A DNA stretch of 36,868 bases. Origin: an uncultured Actinomycetes bacterium (GTDB lineage: Bacteria > Actinomycetota > Actinomycetes > Nanopelagicales > Nanopelagicaceae). Where the stretch lies: contig CAITID010000187.1 of NCBI GenBank assembly GCA_903892335.1, positions 1 to 36,868 of the forward strand. The letters run 5' to 3'. Shown piece by piece: positions 10,838-22,587 of the stretch; position 1 is the stretch's first letter; the number at the start of each line of letters is the position of its first letter. The translations under genes and the position numbers were made by a program. The notes below the pieces were generated by a model. That model was not told the DNA's origin, did not search any database, and saw nothing but the letters and a program-made list of their open reading frames with translations.

Positions 10838-11299
10838 ATGGCAGTTGATTTTGGCGTTATTGCTTGGCATGAAGATGGCCGTTGGACCACATCCGGATTA
10901 GTTGAGACTCGCGATATTGGCATTGTGATTGACTCGCTAAAGGCGCAACAAACAAATGGTGGCGCAATTGCCATGATTGCTATTGAGGATGAGTTTGTAA
11001 TTATTGCGCGCATGCTTGGTGATCAAATGCGAATGATGATCAGTGATGTTACCTACGCACTTGATTACGATGTTGCCTCCGAGTTTGTTGAAGTTATGGA
11101 TTTAGATTTTCCAGAAGAAGAGGATGAACCAGCCCCTGCTGGTGACTTAGATTTGCTAAGTGATTTAGGTGTTGATGAGATGGAGCTACTAATAATTTTA
11201 GAAGACCCAGAGCTCTACCCTGATGAAGCACTAGAAGCAATTGCCAACCGCCTAGGTTTTGGTGATCAATTAAATAAGTTAGCTGAATTTAATAATTGA
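10838..11299 (+). CDS. tRNA adenosine deaminase-associated protein (TIGR03941-like)
   Basis: MAVDFGVIAWHEDGRW; acidic protein immediately upstream of tadA. Confidence 0.8.
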   Translation: MAVDFGVIAWHEDGRWTTSGLVETRDIGIVIDSLKAQQTNGGAIAMIAIEDEFVIIARMLGDQMRMMISDVTYALDYDVASEFVEVMDLDFPEEEDEPAPAGDLDLLSDLGVDEMELLIILEDPELYPDEALEAIANRLGFGDQLNKLAEFNN

Positions 11300-11745
11300 A
11301 CTTTGAATCTTTAATGCAGCAAGCTATTTCACTAGCTAAGGATGCTTCTGATAATGGTGATGTGCCGGTGGGTGCCTTAGTTGTTAATGAGCAGGGTGAA
11401 ATTTTAGGCACTGGCCATAATTTGCGAGAAGAAAGTAATGATCCAACTGCACATGCCGAGATTGTTGCAATGCGCGCGGCTGCGGCAAAGATAAGTAATT
11501 GGCGAATGGATGATTTAACAATGATTGTTACTTTAGAGCCATGTGCGATGTGTGCTGGTGCTATATCTCAATCACGATTTAAAAGATTGGTCTTTGGTGC
11601 TTGGGATCAAAAAGCTGGCGCAGTTGGCTCAATCTGGGATGTAATCAGGGATCCACGCAGTTTAAATAAGGTTGAAGTAATTACTGGTGTTTTAGAAAAG
11701 GATTGTGCTTTAGTACTAAGTAATTTCTTTGAAGGCAGGCGCTAA
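11296..11745 (+). CDS. tadA: tRNA-specific adenosine deaminase
   Basis: NDPTAHAEIVAMR (HAE) and TLEPCAMCAGAISQSR (PCxxC). TTG start overlapping the upstream stop. Confidence 0.93.
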   Translation: MNFESLMQQAISLAKDASDNGDVPVGALVVNEQGEILGTGHNLREESNDPTAHAEIVAMRAAAAKISNWRMDDLTMIVTLEPCAMCAGAISQSRFKRLVFGAWDQKAGAVGSIWDVIRDPRSLNKVEVITGVLEKDCALVLSNFFEGRR

Positions 11746-14114
11746 ATCAACAATTCATAAGATGGATTTAAAATAACTAGATTTCCATTATTTTCACCAA
11801 CCATACCTTCGGCCCTAATCTCAGAACCAACTTCAAGGCCAGTGATATCGCGGCGACCTAAGAATTGAAGTGTTACACCACCGGTTTCATCCCATACTTC
11901 TACCTCAACTAATGGTGATGAATCAGCTGGTGCTGATTTAATTGAGCTGACTTTTCCTTGTACATGCGCACGCTTGCGCCAGGTAATACTTCCGATAGGT
12001 AGGACATTTTCAGCGTAGTGGCTAACGCCTTCCTTCCTGTTTTGCTCGTTAGAAATTGCAGTTTTAATTAAATTACTTTGGGCGCGGACTGGCTCTGCCG
12101 TCTTTTGTGAAACAGTTTTTTTACTCTCTTTTACAACTGGCGTCGTAAGTACGGCATGACCAGAGATAATCTTTTCAACATCAAATGGCACAATCGTTGC
12201 AACTACTCGCTCAAGTTGCGAGATAGGACGCGCAATATCTTCGGCCGTCTGATCATGCAGTAACCAACCTAGAAACTTCGAGTAAGACCTACGTGGCAGC
12301 AACAGAGTCAACTCAACATCATTTTCAGTTGTTGCTCTTATTGCATAATCAACTGCGGCGTTTGCTAATCGGCGATCTGGGCAATCAATTAATTCAAGTG
12401 GCACATCTGTGCACGCCTCATTCTTTGCCCACTCAGCGCTTAATGCCTCAGCCCGCAGATCATCAATTACAAAGTGAACAGCAGAGAGATTTCTTGGCTT
12501 TAATGATCTGGCATATCTGATTGCACCAATTGTGGCTAGATCAAAGTTATCAATTAATACTGTTACATCGTGTCTAGTCATTGATGTTGCTCTTGAGCTT
12601 TGGATATTCACATTAAGTGCTTTTTGCTCCTGGGTGTATTGATTGCGAAGACGAAGAAAAGCAGTAACTAAAAATGGGGTTATGACAACAACTACCCAGG
12701 CGCCTTGATTGAATTTAACTACCGCAAAGATAATCACAACCACTAATGAGATAGCACCAGATAAACCATTAATAAAGAGTTTAAATCGCCACCCTTTATC
12801 ACGGTGCGTAGATGCGTGTTTTGCCATACCAAGGCCAGATAAGGTGAATGCGGTAAATACGCCAAGTGCGTAATAGGCAACTAAGTGCTCAACTGATGCC
12901 TTTGTTACAAGCACCAAGATCATCGCGGTAACTGTTAAAAGAATAATGCCATTTGAAAAATTCAGTTTATGTCCGCGCTTTGTTAGCCATCTTGGCAAGT
13001 AACCATCGGAGGCCACAAAGTTAACAAGTAATGGGAAAGCGCTATACGTTGTATTAGCACCGGCAAATAAGATCAACATTGTTGCAGCTTGGACAACGAT
13101 AAAGAAGGCACTTCCAATAGCGCTATCGCCCAAGATTGTCTTTGCAATCTGTGAAATTACAGTTGGTGTGCCAGATTCATACGGCATTGCATAGATTTTG
13201 TGAGCAAAGTAGGAGACACCTAAGACGAGCGATCCCAAGATGGTGCTCATAATTACTAAGGTGCGCCGGGCGTTTACATGTTCTGGCTCTTTAAATAGTG
13301 CAACACCATCAGAGATCGCCTCAAGTCCAGTCAAAGATGAGCCACCATTTGCAAATGCACGAAGCAAAATAAAGATAGCCGCAAAACTTAATAATCCTTG
13401 TGCTTGGCCAACTTCTACGGCGCCCGGTTGATTTACATCTAATTGCGGCAAACTGCCAGTGATTTCGCGATAAATTCCAGTTATAAAGACAATTAACATC
13501 GAGCCAACGAATAGGTAAGTAGGTAGTGCGAATGCTTTACCAGCCTCTTTAACACCGCGAAGATTTCCATAAGTAAGTAAAACTATGACAACTAATGTCA
13601 TATGTATTTTCCATGGGGCAAGCTCTGGGAAGGTAGAGACGATTGCAGCAACACCGGCTGCTGATTGAATTGCTAGCGTCACGATGTAATCCAGCATCAA
13701 TGCAACTGCAGCAACTTGTGCAACTACTGGACCAAAGTTATCTCTGGAGACTATGTAGGCACCGCCAACCTTTGTGTATACCGAAATTACATTTCGATAA
13801 GACAAAGTAACGATTAGTAAAATCAGCAGAACTATTCCAGTCATCGGCATCAACATTGCAAAAGCTGCAAGACCAAAAGCTGGTACTAGTGCCAACAAAA
13901 TTTGCTCAGAGCCATATGCAGATGATGAGATGCAATCTGAGGATAAAATTCCTAGGCCGTAGCGCTTACTTAATCTTTGATGGCTAAGTGTGTGACGATT
14001 TAATGGATTTCCAAGTAATTTTCGTTTGATCTTGTAAGAAAATGGATCCTTTAGGTGTGCATGCTCTTTTAGCACCTTTGGTGCTGGTGCATTATCAGTC
14101 CAGGACTTAGGCAA
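11742..14114 (-). CDS. APC-superfamily permease with Usp-like cytosolic region and C-terminal OB-fold
   Basis: N-terminal permease (SKRYGLGILSSDCISSSAYGSEQILLAL), Usp-like middle, C-terminal WRKRAHVQGKVSSIKSAPADSSPLVEVEVWDETGGVTLQFLGRRDITGLEVGSEIRAEGMV. Confidence 0.85.
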   Translation of the reverse strand: MPKSWTDNAPAPKVLKEHAHLKDPFSYKIKRKLLGNPLNRHTLSHQRLSKRYGLGILSSDCISSSAYGSEQILLALVPAFGLAAFAMLMPMTGIVLLILLIVTLSYRNVISVYTKVGGAYIVSRDNFGPVVAQVAAVALMLDYIVTLAIQSAAGVAAIVSTFPELAPWKIHMTLVVIVLLTYGNLRGVKEAGKAFALPTYLFVGSMLIVFITGIYREITGSLPQLDVNQPGAVEVGQAQGLLSFAAIFILLRAFANGGSSLTGLEAISDGVALFKEPEHVNARRTLVIMSTILGSLVLGVSYFAHKIYAMPYESGTPTVISQIAKTILGDSAIGSAFFIVVQAATMLILFAGANTTYSAFPLLVNFVASDGYLPRWLTKRGHKLNFSNGIILLTVTAMILVLVTKASVEHLVAYYALGVFTAFTLSGLGMAKHASTHRDKGWRFKLFINGLSGAISLVVVIIFAVVKFNQGAWVVVVITPFLVTAFLRLRNQYTQEQKALNVNIQSSRATSMTRHDVTVLIDNFDLATIGAIRYARSLKPRNLSAVHFVIDDLRAEALSAEWAKNEACTDVPLELIDCPDRRLANAAVDYAIRATTENDVELTLLLPRRSYSKFLGWLLHDQTAEDIARPISQLERVVATIVPFDVEKIISGHAVLTTPVVKESKKTVSQKTAEPVRAQSNLIKTAISNEQNRKEGVSHYAENVLPIGSITWRKRAHVQGKVSSIKSAPADSSPLVEVEVWDETGGVTLQFLGRRDITGLEVGSEIRAEGMVGENNGNLVILNPSYELLI

Positions 14115-14207
14115 TTAAAAACACTCTCCAAATATGCATTTTAGATCGGTTCAGAACCATAAGTATACGCAGGAAAATCTTGACTTTTTTAAGCGTAAAC
14201 CTGCGAG

Positions 14208-15654: not shown

Positions 15655-17067
15655 TCAGATCGATAGAATTTCATTTACAATTCTTTTTGCTCCTTGTAAA
15701 TCAAAAATCTGATTTGATTTATTCGATAACTCATTTCGAAGCTCGAGTGAACTAAGAAGATTCTTTATTTCATTAACTTTCAAATCCCACTTACCACCTT
15801 CATACTTTCCAATTTGCGCAGCAACTCCCATTTCGGGAAGTGACTGATAGTACTGTTTCTGATTATCATAAATGCAGGCAATTCCAACCGCGCAACCTCT
15901 GGCAAGGAACTCTAACGATGTGGAGCCAGACGGTAGAAATACTAAGTCACTTTTGTTTCCAACTTCATCGAGATCATCTCCAATCGGAAATATCTTAAAT
16001 CTTGAATCTTTCGCTATTTTGTCGGGGAAATCGGAAAAGAAAGAAACTTTGAAATCTCCCGGAATTTCACTAACAATTCTTGACATTTCTTCCACAAATC
16101 CAACAGCATCGACTCCGCCTCCTACCACAGTTACATTTAAAGTTGCAGTATTCAGAGCATCCATCAATTTCTTAATTGATTTTCGAAATGGAATAAATCT
16201 TGGACCGGTAAGTAACCTAGACCCCTCGGCGCGATTCAAAAATTCTGAAACGCCCGGATGAATTTGTAGGTCTGCTAGATACTCTGGGGTTGAGCCGTCA
16301 ATGATTGTTATAACAAACTTCCATTTTTCTTGATTAATAAAGGGAGAAGTAGCATGCACAGTGTAGCTGTCTAAAATTAAAATATCGGTTTGATTATTTG
16401 AAACAAAATCTTCTTCATTCTCAAGAATTTGATAAAAACCTACGGACCTAATTCTCTTATTCACCCAAGAGATTTCAGAAATCTTGCCTATAAATATAGC
16501 TTTGTAGTTTAAGGAAATTAATTCTTCAATAATGCCTATCGATCTTTGTGTATGCCCAGTACCTATCTCTAATGAGGCATCTGCCCGCATGACAAACCTA
16601 ACATTCTCATTAACTTTTGCGATGGTAGTAAAATTCTCATCACGAGTAACTTCCTTAAATGCTGCACTTTTGAAAATCTTCTCCGAAGCAATATTTTGGT
16701 GGTTATAAGATGCAATAAGTCTGGCTAAGGGGAATTTAGCAAAAATTAGAGAAAGAGATTGATTTAAAATCGACTGACCGTATCCCTTGCCATAAAATTT
16801 CGGATTTAGACAAATGCTAATTTCTAGAGAGTTTAAATACTCAGTTGATTTATCAAATCTAACATAGCCAACCTCGTTGCTTTCATGGGTGAAAATCCAG
16901 AAAGGCTGAGAATCTAGCAATTCAAGACGGGATTTAAACCAATTCTCGTGATCTTCTTCAGTTATCGCAGTCTTAGATTTGGAGTATTTTCTAGCGGCTT
17001 CATGATTTCGCCAAGCAAGTACCATTGAGGAATCCTCCTGTTTGGCATTTCTCACTAACGGTTTCAT
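15655..17067 (-). CDS. GNAT (PseH-like) + PseG-like fusion protein
   Basis: N-terminal GNAT (LAWRNHEAARKYS, GYVRFDKS, KFYGKGYGQSILNQSL). C-terminal PseG/SpsG-like (MRADASLEIGTGHTQRSIGIIEEL, LDSYTV, GGGVDAVGFVEEM, FLPSGSTSLEFLARG). Confidence 0.85.
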   Translation of the reverse strand: MKPLVRNAKQEDSSMVLAWRNHEAARKYSKSKTAITEEDHENWFKSRLELLDSQPFWIFTHESNEVGYVRFDKSTEYLNSLEISICLNPKFYGKGYGQSILNQSLSLIFAKFPLARLIASYNHQNIASEKIFKSAAFKEVTRDENFTTIAKVNENVRFVMRADASLEIGTGHTQRSIGIIEELISLNYKAIFIGKISEISWVNKRIRSVGFYQILENEEDFVSNNQTDILILDSYTVHATSPFINQEKWKFVITIIDGSTPEYLADLQIHPGVSEFLNRAEGSRLLTGPRFIPFRKSIKKLMDALNTATLNVTVVGGGVDAVGFVEEMSRIVSEIPGDFKVSFFSDFPDKIAKDSRFKIFPIGDDLDEVGNKSDLVFLPSGSTSLEFLARGCAVGIACIYDNQKQYYQSLPEMGVAAQIGKYEGGKWDLKVNEIKNLLSSLELRNELSNKSNQIFDLQGAKRIVNEILSI

Positions 17068-17076
17068 TGTATGGAA

Positions 17077-17084
17077 AGTATACT
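17077..17084. promoter_or_regulatory. Palindromic AGTATACT giving a TATACT -10 on both strands
   Basis: Plus: TATACT 17079-17084, 6 nt, GTG 17091. Minus: TATACT 17082-17077, 9 nt, ATG 17067. Confidence 0.5.
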
Positions 17085-17090
17085 TTTATC

Positions 17091-18113
17091 GTGCCGATCA
17101 ATAATCCAGAAGTCCAGTTCATTGCGGAAATATCAGGCAATCATCTAGGCAAAATAGGTAGGGCCAAAGAACTAATCAAAGCCGCTGCAGATTCAGGTGC
17201 CACAGCCGTGAAATTTCAAACCTATACGGCGGACACGATGACATTAAATCTTGATAAGTTTAAGGTCACAAGTGGACATAATTTATGGGGTGGCAAGAAA
17301 CTTTATGAACTTTATGAAGAAGCTCATACTCCTTGGGAATGGCATGAAGAACTATTTGAACTTTGTCGCAAGTTGGATGTTGTTCCATTTAGTTCACCCT
17401 TTGATTTAACGGCCGTAAAATTTCTTGAATCTCTGGATGTATCTATGTATAAAATCGCTTCACTTGAAACGAGTGATCATTTGTTAATTAAGTCAGTTGC
17501 TGACACTGGTAAGCCAATCATAATTTCAACTGGTGCAACTGAGTGGCAAGAAATTGAAGAGCTAGTGGAGGTAGTTAAAAAAACAGGTAATAGAAATTTA
17601 ACATTACTCCTGTGTACAAGTTCTTATCCAGCAGACCCAATCGATGCAAATTTGTATAGAATTGATTTATTAAGACAACACTTTGGAGTGAATATTGGCC
17701 TATCTGATCACACTCTCGGGATTGGTGTCAGCATTGCAGCGATTGCATTAGGTGCAACCGTAATTGAAAAACATCTCACTTTAAGGCGATCAGACGGCGG
17801 TCCTGACGCAGCGTTTTCTATGGAGCCAAATGAGTTTAAAGCACTTGTTGAAGCCGGGAAAGAAGCGTATAAATCTCTTGGAGATAACAAATGGAGATTA
17901 AACGCATCTGAGGCGGAATCGAGGAGGCTCCGTCGGTCTCTCTATATTGTGAAAGATGTAAAAAAGGGAGATTTAATCACAAATCAGAATTTGCGCGCCA
18001 TTAGACCAGGTGCTGGCTGTTCACCTAAACACACTCCAGAACTTATCGGAAAGTATTTTAAGAATGACTACTCAATTGGAACTCCAATGGAAATTTCTTA
18101 CGCATCAGAGTAA
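17091..18113 (+). CDS. pseI: Pseudaminic acid synthase / NeuB-family synthase
   Basis: FIAEISGNHLGKIGRAKELIKAAADSGATAVKFQTY, IGLSDHTLGIGVSIAAIALGATVIEKHLTL, DGGPDAAFSMEPNEFKALV, C-terminal SAF domain. GTG start 17091 replaces 17025. Confidence 0.92.
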   Translation: MPINNPEVQFIAEISGNHLGKIGRAKELIKAAADSGATAVKFQTYTADTMTLNLDKFKVTSGHNLWGGKKLYELYEEAHTPWEWHEELFELCRKLDVVPFSSPFDLTAVKFLESLDVSMYKIASLETSDHLLIKSVADTGKPIIISTGATEWQEIEELVEVVKKTGNRNLTLLLCTSSYPADPIDANLYRIDLLRQHFGVNIGLSDHTLGIGVSIAAIALGATVIEKHLTLRRSDGGPDAAFSMEPNEFKALVEAGKEAYKSLGDNKWRLNASEAESRRLRRSLYIVKDVKKGDLITNQNLRAIRPGAGCSPKHTPELIGKYFKNDYSIGTPMEISYASE

Positions 18114-18973
18114 TGATGCAAAAAATAATTATTGGCACCGCAAATTTCACAGGGGAATACGGATTCATAAATACAAAGAAAATAGATTACTCAGAAATTA
18201 GCCAGATAATTAGAAAAGCTCAAATTAGCGGAATCAATCATTTTGACACCGCGAAGGCATACGGAAATGCAGAAGAAATACTAGGAAAAAACTTGGATAA
18301 ATCTCAATCTATAACTATTGACTCCAAGGTTAGTAAAAAGGACTGTGTTTCAGTTGACATGATTGTCCGCACAGCAAAAGAAACAATCAAAAAACTAGGA
18401 GTAGCAAAAATATCAACTCTTTACTTACATAGTTTTGAACTAATTAGAGAAGATAAGCAAAATATTGTGAAAAAAGGATTAGAAAAAGTACTTGAACTCG
18501 AACTTGCGCAACATGTAGGCGTATCTGCGTACACTAAAAGTGAATTGATTAGTGCTAAAGAGGCATTCCCACAATTTACCCATTTTCAAATTATTGAAAA
18601 TATATGTGATCGGAGACTAAATGAATCTGGTGAAATTGTAGAGTTCGTCGAATCTGGAAATGTAATCAACATCAGATCTATTTTTCTACAAGGTATACTA
18701 CTGTCTGACCCGAAAATGCTTCAAGATAAATTCAAATCGGCTTTTGATGCAATAAATGGAATGCATCATTATGCAGAATCACAAAACGTTTCGGTATTGG
18801 ATTTATGCCTAGCTTATGCGAAATCAATAAAATGGGCATCAAAAATTGTGGTAGGAATTGATTCAAAAAAACAACTTGAAGAAATCATAAAATCTAAATA
18901 CGAATTAACTACTGGTTGGGAAAACGAAATATCTACTGTCCCTATAAGCCTGCTGGACCCAAGATTTTGGTAG
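18113..18973 (+). CDS. Aldo/keto reductase family protein
   Basis: GTANFTGEYGF, NHFDTAKAYGNAEEILGK, LYLHSFE, GVSAYTKSEL, VVGIDSKKQLEE. Confidence 0.85.
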   Translation: MMQKIIIGTANFTGEYGFINTKKIDYSEISQIIRKAQISGINHFDTAKAYGNAEEILGKNLDKSQSITIDSKVSKKDCVSVDMIVRTAKETIKKLGVAKISTLYLHSFELIREDKQNIVKKGLEKVLELELAQHVGVSAYTKSELISAKEAFPQFTHFQIIENICDRRLNESGEIVEFVESGNVINIRSIFLQGILLSDPKMLQDKFKSAFDAINGMHHYAESQNVSVLDLCLAYAKSIKWASKIVVGIDSKKQLEEIIKSKYELTTGWENEISTVPISLLDPRFW

Positions 18974-18975
18974 AA

Positions 18976-19689
18976 ATGGAATACAAAACAATTGCTATTT
19001 TACAGGCGCGCATGTCTTCTACTCGCCTTCCTGGAAAAGTTATGCTAACTATTAATAGTAGACCGATGATTTACTGGCAAATTCAAAGAATTAAAAGGGC
19101 AAGGCAGGTAGATAAACTAATTCTGGCAATTTCAGAGGAAGCAAGTGACGATGTCTTAGCTGAGTATCTTGACACAATAAAACAAGTGTACGTGCGAGGT
19201 TCATTAAATGATGTATTAGATCGATTCATAAAGGTTAAAAGTATTTATAAATCTCAAGCAATAGTACGGTTAACCGGTGACTGTCCATTAGTTATGCCTA
19301 CCTTAATTGATGAGATAATCGAAGAATTTTATGCACATGATTTGGATTATGTATCTAATACTGTCACTTTAACATTTCCAGATGGATTGGATGTTGAAGT
19401 TTTTAAATCAGGTGCACTTGATCGCTTACGGAGCTTAAGTCTTTCCGAATCAGAAAAAGAACATGTAACTTTAGGAATCATTAACAGACCAGAGATTTTT
19501 ACTATAAAGAATTACGGTAATTATAAGAACTTAAGCTCTTATAGATGGACTGTCGACGACCAGAAGGATTTTGAGTTTGTTAATAAAGTTTTTGCACACT
19601 TTGAGTCAAAAGAAGTTGATTTTTCACAGAAAGAACTCGAAGAATTCGTGCGCAGCAACCCTGAAATCAATCAAATCAAATTTCGATAA
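18976..19689 (+). CDS. SpsF-like cytidylyltransferase family protein
   Basis: AILQARMSSTRLPGKVMLTINSRPMIYWQIQRI, VRLTGDCPLVMPTLIDEII, DGLDVEVF, YRWTVDDQKDFEFV. ATG 18976 is the better start. Confidence 0.87.
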   Translation: MEYKTIAILQARMSSTRLPGKVMLTINSRPMIYWQIQRIKRARQVDKLILAISEEASDDVLAEYLDTIKQVYVRGSLNDVLDRFIKVKSIYKSQAIVRLTGDCPLVMPTLIDEIIEEFYAHDLDYVSNTVTLTFPDGLDVEVFKSGALDRLRSLSLSESEKEHVTLGIINRPEIFTIKNYGNYKNLSSYRWTVDDQKDFEFVNKVFAHFESKEVDFSQKELEEFVRSNPEINQIKFR

Positions 19690-19717
19690 GTTCAATTCAT
19701 TTTTTATGGTATGGGTG

Positions 19718-19723
19718 TAGACT
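19718..19723 (+). promoter_or_regulatory. Putative -10 box of a leaderless promoter
   Basis: TAGACT, 6 nt (tgttga), ATG (19730). Confidence 0.45.
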
Positions 19724-19729
19724 TGTTGA

Positions 19730-21016
19730 ATGCGAAAGTTTCTAAACTCAGTTGCCCATTTAGAAAGAGCAGAGGTAACTATTCCATTAGGGTCGCAAAC
19801 ATTTAGCAAATCAAAAACTCAGTACCCAATCGGTGTATCTCCACTTTTTGCGACCAAAGCGCTGGGAGCCCATATTTGGGATATTGATGGCAACAAGTTC
19901 ATTGATCTTGTTAATTCATTAGCTGCGGTAACTTTGGGCTATGGTGATCGTCGGATAGAAAAAGCCGTGAAGAGTCAATTAAAAAGAGGCGTTTCATTAT
20001 CACTTCCTACAAAACTTGAAGCCGAAGTTTCTGAGTTAATTACTAATTTGGTTCCATCGGCAGAAATGGTGAGATTCAGCAAAAATGGAACCGACGCTAC
20101 TTCTGCAGCAATTAGATTGGCACGGAGCTATACCGGCCGAGACCACATAATTGTTTGCGGTTATCACGGTTGGCAGGATTGGTTTATTGGGTCGACGAGC
20201 AGAAACAAAGGCGTGCCTAAGGCAATCTCTGATCTCACTCACGCATTTGAGTACAACAACTTAGATTCTCTAATTGCAACCTTAAATAGGCTTGAAAATA
20301 AAGTTGCCGCTGTAATTCTTGAACCGATGAGTAGTACCTACCCCACAAAAGACTTTTTGTCTTCGGTAAAGGATTTAACACACAAGGCAGGCGCTGTTTT
20401 AATTTTTGATGAGGTAATTACTGGCTTTAGATTTTCTAAAGGGGGAGCTCAGGAGTTGTTTGGGGTAACTCCTGATTTATCTACATTTGGGAAAGGCATC
20501 GCTAACGGTTTTCCTTTATCAGCCGTAGTTGGTAAAAAAGAAATAATGCTAGAAATGGAAAACGTCTTTTTATCTGGGACTTTTGGTGGTGAACTACTCT
20601 CATTAGCAGCAGCCAAAAATGTACTCCAGCGGCACTTAGAGGAAGATATTTGTGGTGACTTAGAGAAAAAAGGGATAGCACTAGCTGACCTAACAACAAA
20701 AGCAATATCAGAAAACGGGCTACAAGATGTTGTGTCACTTACAGGCCATCCAAGTTGGAAGTTTTTTAATTGGCAACCTACAAATAAATACTCAGTAGGC
20801 GAGATTAAAACTTATTTTCTACAGGAGATTTTTCAAGAAGGTATTTTAGTTTTGAACTCCCACAATATATCACTTGCGCATAACGTAAAAATCATTTCAA
20901 GAATATCAGAAGCCTACAACAAGGTTTTTAGCAATATACGAGAGGCGCTAGACAAAAATATTTTACGAGATCAACTACTCGTTCCAGCGTTGGAGCCTCT
21001 TTTCAAAGTTAGGTGA
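19730..21016 (+). CDS. Class III PLP-dependent aminotransferase (glutamate-1-semialdehyde aminomutase-like)
   Basis: GAHIWDIDGNKFIDLVNSLAAVTLGYG, FSKNGTDATSAAIRLARSYTGRDHI, FDEVITGFRF, STFGKGIANGFPLSAVVG, SGTFGGELLSLAAA. Confidence 0.88.
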   Translation: MRKFLNSVAHLERAEVTIPLGSQTFSKSKTQYPIGVSPLFATKALGAHIWDIDGNKFIDLVNSLAAVTLGYGDRRIEKAVKSQLKRGVSLSLPTKLEAEVSELITNLVPSAEMVRFSKNGTDATSAAIRLARSYTGRDHIIVCGYHGWQDWFIGSTSRNKGVPKAISDLTHAFEYNNLDSLIATLNRLENKVAAVILEPMSSTYPTKDFLSSVKDLTHKAGAVLIFDEVITGFRFSKGGAQELFGVTPDLSTFGKGIANGFPLSAVVGKKEIMLEMENVFLSGTFGGELLSLAAAKNVLQRHLEEDICGDLEKKGIALADLTTKAISENGLQDVVSLTGHPSWKFFNWQPTNKYSVGEIKTYFLQEIFQEGILVLNSHNISLAHNVKIISRISEAYNKVFSNIREALDKNILRDQLLVPALEPLFKVR

Positions 21017-21211
21017 AAATAAAGGAACATTAATCTCTTATTTGCCACTCGCATCATAAATATCTTGCCAATAAACGAGCAGAAATGAATAACTCTTACT
21101 CCAGTAATTAAATTCCACTTTAATCGGAATATTTTAAAAATAGATCCTGAAATCTTAAGTGACCATAAAGAAAATTCTAAACTACCTCTGCCCCCACTAC
21201 TTTTTTGAAGA

Positions 21212-21871
21212 TTATGAATTAAAAGTAAAACGAAAGTCTTCTAATTTTCTGAATTTTAAATCACTTTCGATACACCATTCACCATCGTCCCGCGCAAATC
21301 TTTCAATGAAAACGAAATTTAATTCATGTTTCCTGGCTATTTCTGCGTCACTCTCGCTATCGGAAATTGAAAAAGTTTTTGAAGGCTTGTTTTCGCTTAT
21401 TATTTGCTGCATTCTCAAATCTTTGCTCGGCGGTGTTCCAATCAACTTATTTGCAAATACTTTGTGTAGTCCAAACTGAGCTGAGATTATTTTTAGTTGA
21501 TGATTATCGCAATTTGTAAGAAGAATTAAATTATGGCTGTCACTTAAGTCAGCGAAATAAAAAATAGCATCATCAATTTCTGATTTCAGTCTGGCTTGAA
21601 GCGAAAGCACGTCGAATTCTTCTAAAATAGATGAATACACCGTCTCTCTCTTGTAATCTGATACATCTTTTTGTAAATCGAGAAAGTAATTCACCTTATC
21701 AAACCTAGAGATTCCAGGGTTACTTATATCAAATTCCTTAAATTCGAGATAAACCTTATCTGAAATACAAAACTTAGAAACGGATTCTATAAGGCAGTTG
21801 GAGAGATTTTCGAGAGAATCCAATACAACCCCATCCATATCAAAAATTAGTAGTTTTTGATCAGAAATCAT
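21212..21871 (-). CDS. HAD-superfamily hydrolase
   Basis: LLIFDMDGVVLDSLENL (DxD) and motif-II-like LTNCDNH; 4-bp overlap with the upstream cytidylyltransferase. Confidence 0.75.
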   Translation of the reverse strand: MISDQKLLIFDMDGVVLDSLENLSNCLIESVSKFCISDKVYLEFKEFDISNPGISRFDKVNYFLDLQKDVSDYKRETVYSSILEEFDVLSLQARLKSEIDDAIFYFADLSDSHNLILLTNCDNHQLKIISAQFGLHKVFANKLIGTPPSKDLRMQQIISENKPSKTFSISDSESDAEIARKHELNFVFIERFARDDGEWCIESDLKFRKLEDFRFTFNS

Positions 21872-22587
21872 TTAAAGTCTCCGTATTTATTCACAAATTC
21901 ATAATCCGCCAAACTATCAACTGCTCTTCCGAAATTGGGAATTTCAATTGCGCGTACAGTAATTCCATTTTCTATCAACCTAAGTATTTCAACACTCTCG
22001 GCTGTTTCTAGAGGGCCTTTTTCAAAATTTCCAAACATTTCAAGATCCACTCTATTAAATCCATACAGTCCAGTGTGTTTAAGAAAACCTAGTTCAGCTT
22101 TCTCATTTGAAATTGGCAACTTACTACGAGAAGCATAAATTAATCTAGACCCGCTAACAGCAACTTTAACAACTGATTTACTTTCTATATAACTACTATC
22201 GTAGATTTTTGCGTATCCAATACAAGATTCCAAATGCTGTAGTGTTGTTTCCACAAAATTTTTAATTACGTTTGCAGGTAACATGGGCTCATCACCTTGA
22301 ACATTTATGAAGTATTCAATAGTGGTTGTATTCAGCAGCTCGACTAGCCTGTCTGTTCCAGTTTCACAATCCAAGGATGATTTTACAGAAGGAATATTAA
22401 ACTCAGCGCAAACTTTCAAGATTTCAGCATCCGGAGTACTGACAACGATATTTTCTACTCCAACTGCATCAATACATTTTTCCGCAACTCGAATAACCAT
22501 AGGTTTGCCTTGAATATCCATTAAGGGTTTTCCGGGTAGGCGTGTTGAGTTCATTCTGGCCGGAATTACAACCTTATAGCTGCTCAC
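21868..22587 (-). CDS. KdsB-like (CMP-KDO synthetase family) cytidylyltransferase
   Basis: VVIPARMNSTRLPGKPLMDIQGKPMVIRVAEKC, FINVQGDEPML, HTGLYGFNR, ETAESVEILRLIENG. Confidence 0.88.
   Translation of the reverse strand: MSSYKVVIPARMNSTRLPGKPLMDIQGKPMVIRVAEKCIDAVGVENIVVSTPDAEILKVCAEFNIPSVKSSLDCETGTDRLVELLNTTTIEYFINVQGDEPMLPANVIKNFVETTLQHLESCIGYAKIYDSSYIESKSVVKVAVSGSRLIYASRSKLPISNEKAELGFLKHTGLYGFNRVDLEMFGNFEKGPLETAESVEILRLIENGITVRAIEIPNFGRAVDSLADYEFVNKYGDFK

Follow-up and report, generated by a model that had tools for sequence, protein, structure and literature searches.

The window analysed here, a 36,868-nucleotide stretch of DNA from an uncultured bacterium of the Nanopelagicaceae (contig CAITID010000187.1), encodes a transporter of the KimA type that carries, at its cytosolic C terminus, a small OB-fold domain homologous to a standalone protein of the actinobacterial Trk locus. 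We consider it reasonably likely that this OB domain is a tethered module that helps to regulate or assemble a KimA-type symporter. The fusion gene is one uninterrupted open reading frame on the minus strand, and its features are as follows.

14124..14129, minus strand: GGAGAG, a ribosome-binding-like site 9 nt before the TTG, recognized from the sequence.
11742..14114, minus strand: KimA-OB fusion gene, 790 aa, with a TTG start at 14114 and a stop at 11742-11744.
12615..14042, minus strand: predicted 12-TM K+/H+ symporter domain (residues ~25-500), from phmmer against KimA 6s3k, the residue map and AlphaFold/Foldseek.
12165..12572, minus strand: cytosolic PPAT/Usp-like KimA domain (residues ~515-650), from homology and Foldseek, with the pocket as in PMC10284832.
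12003..12161, minus strand: flexible linker (residues ~652-704), with a pLDDT of about 40-50 through residue 700.
11745..12002, minus strand: OB-fold domain (residues ~705-790), with conserved G/GRRxIxG/NPxY motifs.

A reading made from the sequence only had placed a transporter and an OB domain on one polypeptide, and this holds: the C terminus that it quoted is present in the frame, where RKRAHVQ begins at residue 713. The draft genome of the window is 1.26 Mb and 85% complete. One-frame orthologues of the fusion without internal stops occur throughout the order, with a match in 136 of its 151 genomes, and nearly all of these matches are full-length to residue 789-790, the exceptions being contig fragments and one genus, g8, whose matches are all of the unfused type. 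The fused gene is also found in named finished genomes (e.g. Candidatus Planktophila lacus, NZ_CP016769.1, which with other Nanopelagicaceae is among the named close relatives of the window), and, outside the order, in Acidimicrobiia, Kitasatospora, and Mycobacterium. A frame or assembly error as the source of the fusion is thus ruled out by intact orthologues throughout the order and in finished genomes. Both forms exist across Actinobacteria, fused in this order and in other groups and split elsewhere. The KimA-OB fusion is real and old. Downstream, a cytidine/tRNA-adenosine-deaminase-like gene (11296-11745) converges on the fusion gene with a 4-base overlap of their ends (11742-11745), a gene order also kept in locus L111.

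The same reading had called the transporter an amino-acid permease, which is the Pfam name of its superfamily ("Amino acid permease"). This identity is ruled out by homology to KimA and by conservation of the K+ site. Residues 27-624 match Bacillus subtilis KimA (phmmer against 6s3k, E 1.1e-95), a K+/H+ symporter of the KUP family whose structure and inhibition by c-di-AMP have been described (PMC10284832). As assessed by Foldseek, the top matches of a full-length AlphaFold model (pLDDT 82) are the KimA structures 8b70, 8b71, and 6s3k, with which the window protein has in common the 12-TM plus PPAT-like architecture, the K+ site, and the fold. The region described as Usp-like corresponds to the PPAT-like cytosolic domain of KimA. 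When the K+-coordinating residues of KimA (PMC10284832) were transferred by residue map, D36, Y43, T230, and Y377 corresponded to D60, Y67, T262, and Y415 of the window protein; all four are conserved in 73/73 family sequences and are invariant or nearly so across all clades compared. The window protein is therefore a K+/H+ symporter by homology, and its conserved K+ site suggests that it transports K+. B. subtilis KimA (607 aa) differs in that it ends at the cytosolic domain, without an OB domain.

The OB-fold assignment of the C-terminal ~80 residues was borne out by structure prediction and by domain search. The AlphaFold model of this domain is all-beta, in keeping with a five-stranded OB barrel, with a pLDDT of 93, and Foldseek matches it to the OB domains of PolC, RPA, Stn1, and RecG, the last with a TM-score of 0.76. 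Pfam PF01336 (OB-fold) matches 27 of 35 family members at E<1 (best E 2e-8). The domain in the window scores 26.1 bits (E 8.5e-6), slightly short of the curated threshold of 27 bits. Matches of the OB domain to ubiquitin PDB profiles were taken as artefacts, since no stretch passed alone. The core motifs (G, GRR, and NPxY) are conserved through most of the fused lineage. In the full-length model the linker is disordered and the OB domain makes no fixed contact with the transporter. Could the domain simply bind RNA or ssDNA and recruit an mRNA or a ribosome to the membrane, while transport is not directly affected? By sequence and fold, the RecG wedge and the OB domains of PF01336 are its nearest outside relatives; these occur in DNA-repair or tRNA-synthetase contexts, and the similarity is weak. 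Its structural matches are mostly nucleic acid binders, and standalone homologues of the domain average a net charge of +3.9. However, the genetic association of the OB domain is with ion-uptake genes, and in the window's family the fused domains have a mean net charge of -1.9, although charge is a weak argument. We therefore regard a purely nucleic acid-binding role as improbable.

The OB tail had also been proposed, from the sequence, to resemble a standalone OB protein encoded near DUF3159 and Trk genes, and hmmsearch confirmed this. A profile of the fused OB domain finds 11 short standalone ORFs near KimA genes of a second clade (clade B), with E values of 1e-14 to 1e-24. These are separate ORFs of ~125-180 aa, with a domain more basic than the fused OB of the window, and alignment of fused and standalone domains shows the G, GRRxxxG, and NPxY motifs in common. 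Many families share the locus order dut-OB-DUF3159-TrkA-TrkA-KimA-TRAM methyltransferase. The KimA of this locus belongs to the same family as the window protein (about 35% identity over residues 29-648) but is unfused, and its OB partner is encoded separately at a distance of about 2 kb. In the KimA-domain tree, clades A and B are separated with full support; in this tree the split-pair loci are labeled as without OB, and two rows labeled by alignment length contradict the HMM labels (L162 has OB; L166 is without).

In basal clade-A relatives, KimA and OB are separate adjacent genes that overlap or are one base apart, with stop-start junctions of ATGA (L182), GTGA (L186), and TGA-T-ATG or TGA-G-ATG (L191 and L192). 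These adjacent pairs are likely the pre-fusion state. In the window's genus, the fused gene is located away from the Trk locus, which keeps dut, DUF3159, both TrkA genes, and the TRAM gene, so that exactly OB and KimA are gone. In the sister genus g8, the split KimA/OB pair is in place, only clade-B KimA matches are found, and there is no fused copy. In genome G161, the fused gene occupies the KimA slot of the Trk locus, at which neither a standalone OB gene nor DUF3159 was found. As side observations, L191 (CAMCTY010000001.1) and L126 (CAMAPN010000034.1) are MAGs titled Bifidobacterium breve whose KimA/OB is of an environmental actinobacterial type (41 and 71% identical to the window, respectively), and these records are probably mislabeled.

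Absence of OB inside clade A is concentrated in one Streptomyces group and one mycobacterial group of tandem copies, and counts against a link between KimA and OB. Tandem mycobacterial KimA copies occur in L184 (3601-10026), L155, L062, and L064, two being without OB; in L184, two OB-less copies are followed by a third with a fused OB domain. Such clade-A copies without OB are what would be expected if the fusion were neutral, with OB a passenger kept by descent and with no effect on the transporter. Conservation of G, GRR, and NPxY over most of the fused lineage, together with retention of the OB domain on KimA almost everywhere in the order, argues against this, and we judge a neutral fusion to be decidedly improbable.

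Because OB adjoins DUF3159 and TrkA at nearly all loci examined, its true partner might be the TrkA (RCK) pair or DUF3159 rather than KimA, in which case the fusion would tether a TrkA-side factor to the transporter. Co-occurrence bears on this. We surveyed a class sample of 297 genomes, all except the window's own at least 90% complete, scoring KimA as present at E<1e-20 and OB at E<1e-12, a cut-off that lies beyond the background matches to RecG (near 1e-4 to 1e-7). Both were present in 250 genomes, KimA without OB in 12, OB without KimA in 8, and neither in 27. All 27 genomes of the last group keep DUF3159, and 22 keep TrkA, so OB was lost without the entire locus going with it; these genomes also argue against an OB protein that serves TrkA or DUF3159. 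Two of the eight cases of OB without KimA are contig breaks, and six represent real loss of KimA with OB still beside TrkA, four of them with weaker OB scores. Conversely, KimA is present and both OB and TrkA are absent in ten genomes of family f31. These six and ten genomes favor a TrkA-side OB and speak against a link to KimA. In the fused lineage, by contrast, OB and KimA form one covalent chain, and in clade A the split pairs join OB with KimA, not with TrkA. On this evidence, a partnership with TrkA or DUF3159 in place of KimA is a serious alternative that we nevertheless think unlikely.

The preferred link between OB and KimA finds support in the adjacent stop/start pairs, in the loss of the standalone pair from genomes with the fused gene, and in a partial joint loss, OB being absent mainly from old KimA-less lineages in which TrkA and DUF3159 are kept. 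A fair reading is that OB persists after recent loss of KimA and is gone from old KimA-less lineages. Mapped on a TrkA tree, KimA undergoes 9 changes and OB 4; about two of seven independent pairs change together and none in opposite directions, for which a sign test is not significant. Co-occurrence is clustered by lineage, and a strict dependence of OB on KimA is not established once phylogeny is counted. The raw Fisher p of 4e-22 for KimA and OB, which ignores this clustering, was accordingly set aside as proof. TrkH is anti-correlated with OB, being present in 37/39 genomes without OB versus 67/258 with it, and in 26 of the 27 genomes lacking both KimA and OB versus just 65 of the 250 with both; many KimA/OB genomes thus carry TrkA without TrkH. 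This anti-correlation is likewise lineage-clustered and finds no support among the independent pairs of the TrkA tree.

A further possibility is that the window protein is a KimA gated by c-di-AMP as in B. subtilis, with OB as an accessory. Where KimA has its c-di-AMP loop (H579-N580-Q581-S582), the window protein reads H620-D621-Q622-T623, and it retains R375 (R337 in KimA), H620, and Q622, plus T623 in place of Ser. In KimA numbering, R337, H579, and Q581 are therefore kept, whereas V457E, F568R, V506F, N580D, and P479L are changes. The remodeling extends over the fused clade, which has E457 throughout, R568 in all but one copy, and mostly D580 and F506, with R337, H579, and Thr at 582 mostly kept. 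Unfused clade B, in contrast, retains most pocket residues of B. subtilis, with positions 457, 506, and 580 unchanged in all or the majority of its copies. The genus g8 has a clade-B KimA, and both copies examined carry Ala at the R337 position. Moreover, diadenylate cyclase (PF02457) was found in none of 113 genomes of the window's family (all except the window's own at least 90% complete) and in 12/12 genomes of other families, and the whole family seems to be without c-di-AMP synthesis. Because of this absence and the remodeled pocket, c-di-AMP is an unlikely ligand of the window protein, and the suggested c-di-nucleotide role is not upheld for this organism. Gating as in B. subtilis is, in our estimate, very improbable.

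Other recognizable K+ importers are scarce in the window's family. Kdp is present in 2/113 genomes, and no family member within the 297-genome class sample has TrkH, so the fused gene is probably the family's main K+ importer. With c-di-AMP control apparently gone, the allosteric control that is left may come mainly from OB. Elsewhere in the window, positions 15655-22587 hold a pseudaminic-acid-type sugar cluster (PseI, E 5e-132) that includes a PseH-PseG-like fusion at 15655-17067, two cytidylyltransferases, an aminotransferase, and an aldo/keto reductase.

Taken together, these findings are consistent with the following mechanism. A former partner of KimA, the small OB protein of the actinobacterial Trk locus, would have been fused to the cytosolic C terminus, where a flexible linker would tether it to a KimA-type proton-coupled K+ importer. 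OB probably contacts the cytosolic dimer of KimA or the TrkA (RCK) proteins, tuning transport. The earlier proposal that OB works with the transporter, rather than or as well as binding nucleic acid, is reasonably supported as to joint function, but as to mechanism we infer both a physical contact with the transporter and a regulating rather than merely stabilizing role.

Published observations touch on several components of the locus. In Streptomyces venezuelae, KimA-like proteins occur without TrkH/KtrB (PMC10117811), and a Streptomyces OB-fold gene (cluster 13947) is syntenic with trkA (PMC13118837). In Mycobacterium smegmatis evolved with rifampicin, the OB-fold gene MSMEI_2699 acquired 11 mutations versus 1 without drug, and the nearby trkB gene MSMEI_2701 acquired 4 versus 0 (PMC10433840). 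From its annotation and gene order, MSMEI_2699 appears to be an ortholog of the Trk-locus OB family. In Mycobacterium tuberculosis transposon screens, ceoB and its neighbor Rv2690c have a common effect (PMC12216072), and gene order would place clade-B KimA at the Rv2690c position. In the literature searched, which covered few subscription papers, we found neither a KimA-OB fusion nor an OB protein assigned to KimA. What is new here is a KimA that carries its Trk-locus OB partner as a fusion, KimA itself being already known.

More speculatively, the TrkA pair, KimA, and OB of Actinomycetia without TrkH might constitute one K+-uptake system, in which KimA would be the unrecognized membrane partner of the mycobacterial and streptomycete "Trk" proteins and OB a gating subunit, and from which freshwater actinobacteria would have fused KimA and OB and abandoned c-di-AMP control; we put this forward only tentatively. 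The findings suggest KimA as a possible membrane partner for the Trk proteins of actinobacteria that lack TrkH. They give a widespread actinobacterial OB protein, labeled only "nucleic acid binding," a concrete and testable role tied to K+ uptake, and they point to a transporter lineage with a remodeled c-di-AMP pocket that has been kept by a major freshwater group seemingly without c-di-AMP synthesis.
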